64,000 nt of DNA from Stutzerimonas nosocomialis (GTDB taxonomy: Bacteria > Pseudomonadota > Gammaproteobacteria > Pseudomonadales > Pseudomonadaceae). Positions 1 through 47,000 of the stretch are shown one piece after another; position 1 is the first letter of the stretch; each line of letters starts with the position of its first letter. A program made the translations under genes and the position numbers. The notes beneath the pieces are model-generated. The model was given only the letters and a program-made list of their open reading frames with translations. It made no database searches and was not told the DNA's origin. The stretch covers positions 43,157-107,156 of the forward strand of contig NZ_QLAE01000014.1 of assembly GCF_005876855.1 (NCBI RefSeq), in the 5' to 3' direction.

Positions 1-145
1 AGCCAACGCCGAGCCAAGCCCGATGCGTAAGCGCCGGGAAGGTGTAGAGAGCAGACGGCGGGCACCTAAGGCGCAAGGCTAAGGTGAAGGCGTGCTCCAG
101 ACCACGAACAGCGACGCTGCTGGCGGTGAAAGCCGAAGTGGTAAG
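1..145 (+). ncRNA. Group I intron (IC3-like), 3' part, interrupting tRNA-Leu
   Basis: The window opens inside a self-splicing group I intron. Several blocks closely resemble the Azoarcus tRNA-Ile intron as I remember it: the segment with GCCGAGCCAAGC near 9-20, GAAGGTGTAGAGA at 38-50, and CACCT..AGGTG forming P8 (63-67 with 82-86). The P7 helix pairs GAGCA (49-53) with TGCTC (93-97). In Azoarcus the strands are GACUA/UAGUC, so two base pairs differ by compensatory changes, which supports a folded RNA. A P9 stem pairs ACCAC (101-105) with GTGGT (138-142). The terminal G of the intron is position 145, directly before the tRNA 3' exon. The 5' part of the intron and the 5' exon lie upstream of the window. 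No homing endonuclease ORF is seen in the visible part. Confidence 0.88.
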
Positions 146-197
146 AAAATCCCCCGACTTAACCGTCGTGCCGGTTCGATTCCGGCCTCGGGCACCA
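146..197 (+). tRNA. tRNA-Leu(UAA), 3' exon
   Basis: This is the 3' half of a leucine tRNA. It starts with AAAA, which would be anticodon positions 35-36 plus 37-38. It continues with the anticodon 3' stem TCCCC (150-154), a long class II variable arm (CGAC 155-158 with GTCG 165-168), the T arm (GCCGG/CCGGC around TTCGATT, 170-186), acceptor strand CTCGGGC (187-193), discriminator A194 and encoded CCA 195-197. The long variable arm and acceptor strand point to Leu. Position 34 lies in the missing 5' exon, so UAA is inferred (CAA is possible). The break between 34 and 35 is the same site used by the cyanobacterial tRNA-Leu(UAA) group I intron. Confidence 0.9.
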
Positions 198-203
198 ATA
201 TCG

Positions 204-238
204 AAGCCGTCTCTGTTCAAGCAGAGGCGGCTTTTTTC
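204..238 (+). terminator. Rho-independent terminator of tRNA-Leu
   Basis: A 12-bp stem (204-215 with 222-233, one T-G pair) around a 6-nt loop is followed by a run of T to 237. It lies 6 nt after the CCA end of the tRNA. Confidence 0.9.
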
Positions 239-44045: not shown

Positions 44046-47000
44046 ATGACCGTGCGTGTATCCCGGCGACAATTCCTGAAGTTCGGCGCCGCAGGCCTGG
44101 GCGCGTCGAGCATGGCCATGATGGGGTTCGCCCCTGACGAGGCCCACGCGTCGATCCGGCATTTCAAGCTGACCGGCGCGAAGATGACCCGCAACATCTG
44201 CACCTACTGCTCCGTAGGCTGCGGCATGTTGCTCTACAGCCGCGGAGACGGCGCGATCAACGCCCATGAAGAGATCTTCCACGTCGAAGGCGATCCGGAT
44301 CATCCGGTGAGCCGTGGTTCGCTGTGCCCGCGCGGTTCCGGTGTGCTCGACTTCATCAAGGCCAAGTCGCGGACCAAGTTCCCCGAGGTCCGCGAGCCCG
44401 GCAGCAACGAGTGGAAGCGAATCAGCTGGGACGAGGCCATGGAGCGCATCGCCCGCTGGATGAAGGACGACCGCGACGCCAACTTCGAGACCCATGACGA
44501 GCAGGGAAGGCTGGTCAACCGCTGGATGACCAGCTCGATGGTGGCCGCATCGGCCTGTACCAACGAGACGGCGTATCTCACCCAGAAGATCACCCGGGCG
44601 CTGGGCATTCTCAAGCTGGATAACCAGGCGCGCGTCTGACACGGACCGACGGTGGCAGGTCTTGCCCCTTCATTCGGTCGCGGTGCCATGACCAACCACT
44701 GGGTCGACATCCGCAACGCACACATCATCCTGTCCATGGGAGGCAACTCCGCGGAGGCGCATCCGGTGGGCTTCCGCTGGGTCATGCAGGCCAAGGAGCG
44801 CAGCAACGCGATCCTGATCTCCATCGACCCGCGCTACAACCGCACCACGGCGGTGGCCGACTATCACGCCTGGATTCGCACCGGCACCGACATCGTCTTC
44901 CTCGGCGGGCTGATCAGCTACCTGATCGAGAACAACCGCTACAACGACGAATACGTGCGCGCCTATACGGACGCCAGCCTGCTGGTCAACCAGGACTTCG
45001 GCTTCGAGGACGGCCTGTTCACCGGCTACGACGAGGCCAGGCACCGCTACGACCGCAAGACCTGGAATTTCCAGCTCGACGAGCAGGGCTTCGCCCGCCG
45101 CGACCCGACGCTGCAGGACCCGCGCTGCGTGTTCCAGATGATGCGCCAGCATTACAGCCGCTACACCGTGGAGATGGTCGAGACCACCTGCGGCATGCCG
45201 CGTGAAACCGTGCTGCAGCTGTGGGACCTGATCGCGCAGTCCGCCGCGCCCGACAAGACCATGACCATTCTCTACGCCCTGGGCTGGACACAGCATTCGG
45301 TCGGCTCGCAGATGATCCGCGCCGCCGCGATGGTGCAGCTCCTGCTGGGCAACATGGGCATGCTCGGCGGCGGGGTGAACGCCCTGCGCGGCCATTCCAA
45401 CATCCAGGGCCTGACGGACATCGGGTTGCTCTCCAACCTGTTGCCGGGCTACATGAACCTGGCCTCGGTCGACCTGCAGAGTTACCAGCAGTACCTGGAC
45501 AAGCGGATCAAGGAGCCGCTTCTTCCCGAGCAGGTGTCCTACTGGAAGTACTACGAGCGCTTCTTCGTCAGCACCATGAAGGCCTTCTACGGCGATGCCG
45601 CCACGGCCGAGAACAACTGGTGCTACGACTGGCTGCCCAAGCTCTCCGAGCCGATCTACGACGTGCTCTATGCCGCCAACGACATGGCCAACAGGAAGAT
45701 GACCGGCGCCTTCTGCCAGGGCTTCAACATCCTGGCCGCGTTCCCCGACAAGGCGAAGATGACCCGGGCGCTGTCGAACCTCAAATATCTGGTCGTCATG
45801 GACCCGTTGCAGACCGAGACCAGCGAGTTCTGGCAGAACTACGGGGCGTTCAACGACGTCGACCCGAGCCAGATCCAGACCACGGTGTTCCGCCTGCCGA
45901 CCACCTGCTTCGCCGAGGACGACGGCTCCATCACCAACAGCTCGCGCTGGCTGCAATGGCACCACCGTGCCGCGCCGCCGCCTGGCGAGGCGCGCACCGA
46001 CACCCACATCCTGGGCGATCTGTTCCAGCGCATTCGCCGGCTCTATGAGCAAGAGGGCGGCGCCTTCCCCGAGCCGATCCTGAACATGGCCTGGGATTAC
46101 GCCGTGCGCGACTACCCGCAGGCCGACGAGCTGGCCCGCGAGTACAACGGCCGGGCGCTGGCGGACATCGAGGATCAGGGACGCATCATCCGGCGCAAGG
46201 GCGAGCTGCTCAACGACTTCGGCGAACTGCGCGCCGACGGTTCCACCGCCTGCGGCTGCTGGATCTATTCCGGCGCCTGGACCGAAGCCGGCAACATGAT
46301 GGATCGGCGCGACAACGCCGATCCATACGACAACGGCCAGACCCTCGGCTGGGCCTGGGCCTGGCCGATGAACCGGCGGATTCTCTACAACCGCGCCTCG
46401 GCACGCCCGGACGGCACGCCCTGGAACCCGGACCGCCGGCTGATCTGGTGGAACGGCGAGCGCTGGGTGGGCGCCGACATCCCCGACTATCCGGTCGCGG
46501 CGCCACCGGAGCAGAACGTCGGCCCGTTCATTCTCAACCAGAGTGGTGGCGGGCACTTCTTCGTCAGCGAGTGGTTGAACGAGGGCCCGTTCCCCGAGCA
46601 CTACGAGCCGTTCGAATCGCCGATCGACCACAACCCGCTCAGCCCCGACAACCCGCTGGCCTACCACAACCCCATCGGCCGGGTGTTCGAGGAAGACAAA
46701 CCCAACTTCGGCACGGCCAAGGAGTTCCCGTACGCGGCGACCACCTACCGGCTCACCGAGCACTTCCACTACTGGACGCACCACGTGCTGCTCAATGCCA
46801 TCGCGCAGCCGGAGAAATTCGTCGAGATCGGCGAAACCCTGGCCGAGGAACTGGGCATCAAGGCGGGCGAAAAGGTCCGGGTGACCTCCAAGCGAGGGTA
46901 CATCGAGGCGGTGGCGGTGGTGACCAAGCGGCTGATTCCGCTGCAGATCACCGGCAAGACCGTGCATCAGGTCGGCATCCCGATCCACTGGGGCTTCCTG

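Follow-up and report, generated by a model that had tools for sequence, protein, structure and literature searches.

We propose that the intron-split tRNA-Leu(UAA) gene at the start of the window (the whole stretch of 64,000 nucleotides of Stutzerimonas nosocomialis DNA analysed here; genome G000, contig C14, positions 43157-107156) is most likely the domesticated spare tRNA of an integrative and conjugative element (ICE), that its group I intron hides the core of the spare from the integrase, and that the element has since been lost. Judging by sequence, we give this reading a probability of roughly 0.7. The clustering of bacterial group I introns in tRNA anticodon loops and the spread of introns too small for a homing gene are open questions, to which the reading offers a concrete and testable answer; i.e., the intron rides in a whole tRNA gene on elements whose att core is that loop, split by the intron. 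If true, this would give elements a novel route for safe insertion into an essential gene. Within a single genus, moreover, an essential tRNA gene has several times given way to a foreign one that depends on a ribozyme.

The intron-split tRNA-Leu(UAA) gene

The window begins inside the intron, and the sequence that precedes it on the same contig (L001) is the 5' part of the same gene. The sequence-only reading had taken the host for a pseudomonad, which holds for the genus Stutzerimonas of the Pseudomonadaceae, and had proposed that a 5' exon be sought upstream, which was present. The features are as follows.

C14:43039-43073, just before the window: 5' exon of tRNA-Leu(UAA), 35 nt, ending GGGGACTT
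C14:43074-43301: complete group I intron, 228 nt, of which the first 83 nt precede the window
Window 1-145, + strand: 3' 145 nt of the intron, from the P4 3' strand onward (preceding part, G000:C14:43039-43156)
Window 49-53, + strand: P7 5' strand, GAGCA
Window 57-63, + strand: P3 3' strand, GGCGGGC, with its partner GCCCGTC before the window
Window 65-84, + strand: predicted P8 hairpin, CCTAAG/CTAAGG, with an A-A mismatch
Window 93-97, + strand: P7 3' strand, TGCTC
Window 101-142, + strand: P9 domain (P9, 101-105/138-142; P9.1, 122-124/132-134)
Window 145, + strand: intron-terminal G; 3' splice site, 145/146
Window 146-197, + strand: 3' exon of tRNA-Leu(UAA), A35 to CCA, 52 nt, starting AAAATCCCC
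Window 203-238, + strand: terminator-like hairpin and T-run, directly 3' of the tRNA

We joined the exons in silico and obtained an 87-nt tRNA with a full fold, which ARAGORN read as tRNA-Leu(taa), in agreement with the identity proposed earlier. The break between positions 34 and 35 was also confirmed, which we take to be the intron site of cyanobacterial tRNA-Leu(UAA). The gene occupies the native place behind tRNA-Gly and tRNA-Cys. It holds the same nine-base core as the elements described below, split as CTT-intron-AAAATC; the first bases of its 3' exon, AAAATC, are the right part of CTTAAAATC, the att core of that integrative element family. Past the tRNA, likeness to relatives extended to about +38 to +55, over the terminator-like hairpin region. 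On the practical side, ARAGORN as run overlooked the split gene, reporting it neither in the window nor in L001. Elsewhere in the window, a SECIS_3 selenocysteine insertion element matched at 44634-44692 (79.6 bits).

The Rfam Intron_gpI model (RF00028) matched L001 at 1501-1693 over the whole model (1-253) with 45.1 bits and an E of 1.5e-9, under the curated cut-off of 50 bits. The window alone, in which the 5' end of the intron is missing, gave no Intron_gpI match at the curated cut-off; i.e., the match came once the whole intron was searched. This score and the kept helices bear out the claim of a group I intron upstream of the tRNA-Leu 3' half. Membership in group I is indicated by the covariance match over the whole model, the U.G of P1, the P3/P7 pseudoknot and the terminal G. 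CUU pairs with GAG in P1 and places U.G at the 5' splice site, as was found in 61/61 distinct UAA-class sequences. The terminal G before the 3' splice site was present in 85/85 parsed introns (98 examined, 13 unparsed) with a parser that accepted A or G.

Across the 61 distinct sequences, which include the window's own intron, standard pairs were kept in 98-100% of cells in P1 (365/366), P3 (418/427), P4 (299/305), P7 (305/305) and P9.1 (183/183), and in 91-96% of cells in P2 (445/487), P5 (281/292), P6 (231/244) and P9 (289/305). The 5' strand of P7 was part of the search pattern, whereas its 3' strand was not. These counts indicate that the conservation of the helices is not chance. When compared with GACTA/TAGTC of the tRNA introns L034 and L039, two pairs of P7 (GAGCA/TGCTC, 49-53/93-97) are altered on both sides, as the compensatory changes had been read; the G-C pair of P7 is presumably the guanosine-binding pair of the intron. 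P8 and P9 had been called intact. P9 is present with P9.1; however, P8 is weaker, with its mismatch, and in the register of the window it was kept in only 202/366 cells, failing in most relatives. We take the intron to resemble that of Azoarcus tRNA-Ile.

UUA codons need tRNA-Leu(UAA). A genome-wide tRNA scan of G000 gave 46 matches, in which the leucine anticodons read by ARAGORN were UAG, CAA, GAG and CAG (twice), and UAA was absent. Pattern searches of G000 found no uninterrupted tRNA-Leu(UAA), the single looser match being a tRNA-Leu(CAA). That is, the intact gene that would have made the 3' exon a dead fragment was not found, and the intron-split gene is the only UAA reader found in the genome; therefore, its splicing must work, and the intron probably splices in vivo. 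A pseudogene with a dead intron, with UUA read in another way, is very improbable. The Rfam score under the cut-off and the fact that splicing is a prediction would suit it; however, the core helices are kept in the 61 sequences, the joined tRNA folds fully, and no other UAA tRNA gene was found in G000.

Broken native genes and integrative elements in relatives

In four genomes of the genus (G006, G017, G036 and G048), promoter-like GGTTATAGTCCTGCG or a close form, i.e., the sequence found before intronless native genes, is followed by a native tRNA-Leu 5' half that runs to the anticodon loop. Foreign sequence with TGTCAAG or TGTAAAG comes next, and then a complete intron-bearing tRNA-Leu, whose allele is different from that of the native half. 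G033 has the native 5' half upstream too, with a group II intron in between, and G011 has kept the spacer, with the native half-gene absent. The spacer is common to Lysobacter, Ottowia, Variovorax, Hydrogenophaga and Eoetvoesiella. The likeness of G033 to those genera persists for 1.4 kb past the tRNA, to the end of the compared piece; that of G017, G036, G048 and G011 ends at about +38 to +46.

The group II intron of G033 (GTGCGCC...GACCCAAC; L123 on C1, 4858-7422; L131 on C2, 5248-7813) lies in the anticodon loop of tRNA-Leu(UAA) after CTTAAAA, in one otherwise complete gene and in one broken native half-gene. The C1 copy has an RT/maturase (TIGR04416). Within the intron lies a complete tRNA-Leu(UAA) of its own, whose anticodon stem is altered (GGGCACTTAAAATGCCC).

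We searched 21 genomes for the tRNA-Leu 3' half, with a pattern that missed that of G036 owing to one changed base. The native 3' half lies downstream on the same strand, at a distance from the 3' exon of the spare of 67.7 kb in G006, 44 kb in G033, 40.6 kb in L. concretionis, 45 kb in Ottowia, 51 kb in Eoetvoesiella and 65.5 kb in P. jinjuensis; in G036 it lies about 14 kb downstream. In G017, G048 and G011, none was found within 20 kb downstream or by the genome pattern, the same that missed that of G036. The acceptor stems (7 bases) of the far-apart halves were exactly complementary in 5/5 compared (G006, L. concretionis, Ottowia, Eoetvoesiella and P. jinjuensis), e.g., GCGTCCA/TGGACGC in Eoetvoesiella, and none of the five equals the GCCCGAG of the spare; therefore, the near and far pieces are the two halves of one gene.

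Seven elements of about 14-68 kb (about 68 kb in G006 and 47 kb in G033) were delimited inside the native tRNA-Leu(UAA), with its 5' half at one end and its 3' half at the other. In each, a complete intron-bearing tRNA-Leu(UAA) lies about 150-205 bp inward of the left end. The right ends of all seven read GCTTAAAATC and then the native tRNA. Undecayed left ends read ACTTAAAATC and then the element, exactly so in 4/7 (Lysobacter, Ottowia, Eoetvoesiella and P. jinjuensis); those of G006 and G036 are altered, and the group II intron splits that of G033. Based on the sequences shared by the left and right ends, the core is CTTAAAATC, the anticodon loop plus two bases, which forms a 9-bp att direct repeat around the carrier in relatives.

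G006 encodes a 399-aa tyrosine integrase (PF00589, E 1.6e-18; arm-binding PF13356) that starts 177 nt from the right core, and the copy in G033 is 92% identical to it. N-terminal parts of the integrase were found at the right ends in Lysobacter (L350), Ottowia (L352), Eoetvoesiella (L354) and P. jinjuensis (L356), and the right end of G036 has a truncated integrase; the integrases compared are >90% identical. Behind the spare, on the opposite strand, G006 and G033 carry TrbI, TrbL, TrbE and TraG, and the stretches examined of Lysobacter, Ottowia and Eoetvoesiella carry TrbI and TrbL. Conjugation genes were therefore present in 5/7 delimited elements; no Trb genes were found in the G036 remnant or within 4.9 kb after the spare of P. 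jinjuensis. With att repeats, a tyrosine integrase at an end and conjugation genes, the carrier in relatives qualifies as an ICE, and its integrase probably acts at CTTAAAATC.

Among the matches listed, a contiguous core was found 120-320 nt upstream in 29/78 UAA-class loci. No contiguous core was found at that distance in 46/78, in which the named copy of G006 (L155) is counted since its relic core is altered, and 3/78 had too little upstream sequence. The tRNA-Leu(CAA) class was considered as a second element family and rejected, as no relic lies within the same distance in 33/34 loci (1 too short).

We also searched 399 genomes of the family of Ottowia for the left end of the element only, i.e., independently of the intron. 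Twelve elements were found, of which those of Ottowia and of the genome of L188 were already known and 10 were new. In all 12, a native tRNA-Leu 5' half is followed after 156-198 nt by an intron-split spare, and an intronless spare was found in 0/12; these elements are related, with much the same left end, and may reflect one founder event instead of 12 independent tests. In an even class sample, the left-end pattern matched 0/369 genomes, which indicates rarity only. A pattern without CTT, which would catch insertion into split or CAA genes, matched 11/399 genomes, all at loci already found with CTT. This result agrees weakly with specificity for the core, as its weight depends on how many of the 399 genomes have an intron-bearing resident gene.

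A proposed masking role of the intron

We propose that the tyrosine integrase recombines the native tRNA-Leu(UAA) at its 9-bp core in the anticodon loop, which would cut the gene in two, and that the element would supply a complete tRNA-Leu(UAA) near its left end with its own core split by the intron. An uninterrupted spare would put a second core about 200 bp from the left core as a direct repeat, leading to recombination with the left or right core. The intron-split spare would present no intact core at the DNA level; i.e., neither recombination of the spare with attL or attR nor re-insertion would be expected. At the RNA level, the ribozyme would remove itself and yield a functional tRNA. 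As the element decays, the host could not lose the spare because the native tRNA-Leu(UAA) gene is broken. The anatomy suggests that masking is the reason for the intron. In a broader form, the intron may be a DNA-level cloak that shields the loop of the spare from its own integrase and from other users of the site, with hosts becoming dependent and the spare stranded as the only copy; we put the odds of this at about even.

Alternatively, the element may at some time have picked up an intron-bearing tRNA-Leu(UAA) from a host, in which case the intron would have no role and any complete spare would do. We regard this as rather doubtful, albeit credible. One capture could suffice, given the much the same left end of the elements and the likeness of their integrases, and intron-bearing tRNA-Leu genes free of a relic are common (the 46/78 among the matches listed). 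However, the intron site falls within the 9-bp core, and none of the 12 elements found without using the intron has an intronless spare. On the intron tree, moreover, copies with and without a trace of the element were clustered yet interleaved (11 changes, at least 6 forced, against a shuffled mean of 20).

Two further loci bear on this choice. G039:C21 (L380-L382) has an intron-bearing tRNA-Ile2(CAU) in an apparent integrative element at the native tRNA-Ile2. Its anticodon-loop core CTCATAATCC lies about 190 nt upstream, and the intron splits the core of the spare into CT and CATAATCC, an apparent parallel in another tRNA that speaks against an intron without a role. Transporter, transposase and autotransporter genes lie between the apparent ends, and the only integrase found belongs to a neighbouring element. 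The locus may be an independent case of an intron-split core, and both it and the G033 group II intron with its own spare may be convergent cases. G068:C7 (L377-L379) also has an intron-bearing tRNA-Ile2(CAU) in an apparent element, and the native gene is broken in the T-loop. The apparent core lies in the T-loop, where the intron leaves it unsplit, as would be expected if the intron had no role; a loose motif scan found no integrase. We did not count G068 as support for masking. It resembles an insertion into the T-loop and argues against masking as a general rule.

Distribution, descent and related systems

We surveyed the genus under strict filters, using a covariance model made from the relatives found first. 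The tRNA-Leu(UAA) intron was found in 9/56 Stutzerimonas genomes, along with one tRNA-Ile2 intron (G039); among 116 relatives, RF00028 matched at least 9, with strict filters that missed the window's own intron. The uninterrupted gene was found in most of the other genomes: a first pattern matched 34, including the intron-bearing G033, and a second pattern matched 12 of 14 others, the exceptions being G004 (71% complete) and, less clearly, G014. In 8/9 intron-bearing genomes, no intact tRNA-Leu(UAA) was found; the exception, G033, has two, both within group II introns.

On an rpoB tree of 55 genomes (G004, in which no rpoB was found, was left out), the nine intron genomes were scattered, with 8 changes, at least 6 of them forced by strong branches, and a shuffled mean of 8.6. 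The nine introns do not form one clade (p-AU 1.2e-7 with a duplicate record present; 3.6e-5 with the duplicate record and the CAA class left out). The intron of G033 is identical to that of Lysobacter concretionis at 228/233 positions and to that of the betaproteobacterium Ottowia beijingensis at 224/232. Intron and exons travel together across classes. The suggestion of horizontal transfer is upheld. The 8 changes and the differing intron lineages disfavour vertical inheritance with losses, and reverse splicing was rejected as the sole route in G006, G017, G033, G036 and G048, where the intron brought exons and flanks along and the native half-gene is still in place. For G000, G047 and G009, reverse splicing is possible.

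The genus also presents a decay series. G006 and G033 have long elements, and G036 has a 14-kb remnant with a truncated integrase. In G017, G048 and G011, the left-end spacer and the spare are left. In the last stage (G000 and G047), the spare alone stands directly behind native-type promoter sequence. Searches of the G000 locus (window and L116) gave no match to the integrase, to Trb/TraG, to the right end or to a native 3' half, and no native half-gene relic or spacer was found. The gene of the window fits the last stage of decay, and no mark at the locus itself proves an origin from an element. Direct intron gain or plain gene transfer is possible there.

A resident tRNA-Leu(UAA) in the lineage of G000 and G047 may have gained the intron through reverse splicing or the transfer of an allele, or may have inherited it, with no element involved. 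Besides the bare locus, the native place of the gene behind tRNA-Gly and tRNA-Cys would suit such an entry, as would G008 and G009, whose intronless and intron-bearing genes have a like exon type and the same surroundings. However, the nearest rpoB relatives outside the G000/G047 pair (G038 and G040) have uninterrupted genes, in five other species of the genus an incoming tRNA of this kind still has the broken native gene upstream of it, and the exons travel with the intron across classes. We consider entry into a resident gene unlikely and descent of the window copy from an ICE probable.

The sequence-only reading had called such an intron unexpected in a pseudomonad. This did not hold, as the P7-variant core was found in at least 117 stretches of species-representative genomes; among those listed, 78 are tRNA-Leu(UAA), 34 are tRNA-Leu(CAA) and 5 are unparsed. 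By this sequence match, tRNA-Leu genes of both Beta- and Gammaproteobacteria share this intron core. In the 34 tRNA-Leu(CAA) loci of the sister class (among L134-L250, e.g., L166, L178 and L186), C34 stands at the 5' splice site, with the sites inferred. A GAG guide was found within 40 nt downstream in 34/34, with a script that sought GAG, and the 19 parsed ones were confirmed by eye. The splice-site pair of this class would be C-G, not the usual U.G.

Group I introns in bacterial tRNA genes have long been known, namely in cyanobacterial tRNA-Leu(UAA), Azoarcus tRNA-Ile and alphaproteobacterial tRNA-Arg. The intron described here is likewise a small intron in an anticodon loop and is a further case of these, whereas the element with a ribozyme-split spare varies a known kind in a new way. 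It differs in its P7 (GAGCA/UGCUC, not GACUA/UAGUC) and in that relatives carry it in a spare tRNA on integrative elements, with the native gene broken. The TrbE, TrbL, TrbI and TraG of the elements are presumably of the IncP/trb type, as in Tn4371-like or trb-type ICEs. The elements probably differ from Tn4371-like ICEs in that they target tRNA-Leu(UAA) and have the integrase at the end away from the Trb/TraG genes.

ICEMh1 and ICEPmu1 of Pasteurellaceae are described as integrating in a tRNA-Leu anticodon loop with an 11-13 bp direct repeat of the loop (PMC6861422). Their target, however, is the tRNA that reads UUG, and they cope with the insertion in that a complete tRNA is retained at one of the junctions (PMC6861422); the Leu(UAA) elements restore the tRNA at neither end and hold a whole intron-split spare inside. 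IStrons likewise team a group I intron with a mobile DNA element. The IStron intron is described as rendering insertions harmless (PMC4227781), whereas the intron here interrupts a spare tRNA, in which it may conceal an att site.

Introns in tRNA-Leu(UAA) are described as lying at one exact position, and the majority of bacterial tRNA introns at 37/38 (PMC4033280). Putative group I introns were already reported in tRNA-Leu(UAA) and tRNA-Arg(UCU) of Beggiatoa/Thiomargarita (PMC4853749), which also speaks against rarity. These too lie in tRNA-Leu(UAA) of Gammaproteobacteria and are set beside the window intron by description only; the available part of that description mentions no element, native remnant or core (PMC4853749). 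The authors of tRNAscan-SE 2.0 noted introns in tRNA-fMet and tRNA-Ile2 (PMC8450103). In the main text of a 2014 review, the words Pseudomonas, proteobacteria and Beggiatoa do not occur (PMC3984707). In the literature covered, mostly at title level and without most subscription journals, we recognised no paper that ties an intron-bearing tRNA to an integrative element.

The window gene was also matched by plasmids and phages. Among 72,556 plasmid records, 1280 matched, 1243 of them over at least 80% of the gene at about 67% identity, and 922 of the 1280 are predicted to be conjugative. In the one record examined, plasmid pCTX-M3 (L260, 2495-2793), a group I intron (P7 GACTG/CAGTC) interrupts a tRNA-Leu(UAA) next to an aminoglycoside-resistance gene; GCGGACTTAAAA, which is core-remnant-like, lies 164 nt upstream. 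Phage introns observed until 2014 were all in protein genes (PMC3984707). The core of this intron also occurs within or close to tRNA genes in four phage-like viral contigs (L253, L255, L256 and L258), namely tRNA-Leu(UAA) in L256 and other tRNAs in L253 and L258, and the huge phage LR756511 (L261) matched the window gene in two pieces. Acidovorax phage AP1 (L262, 1501-1550) and Aeromonas phage LPM4 matched the tRNA-Leu(UAA) 3' half, A35 to CCA (query 264-315). In AP1, this half lies just after the integrase gene and is likely attP; other integrating elements may use tRNA-Leu(UAA) too.
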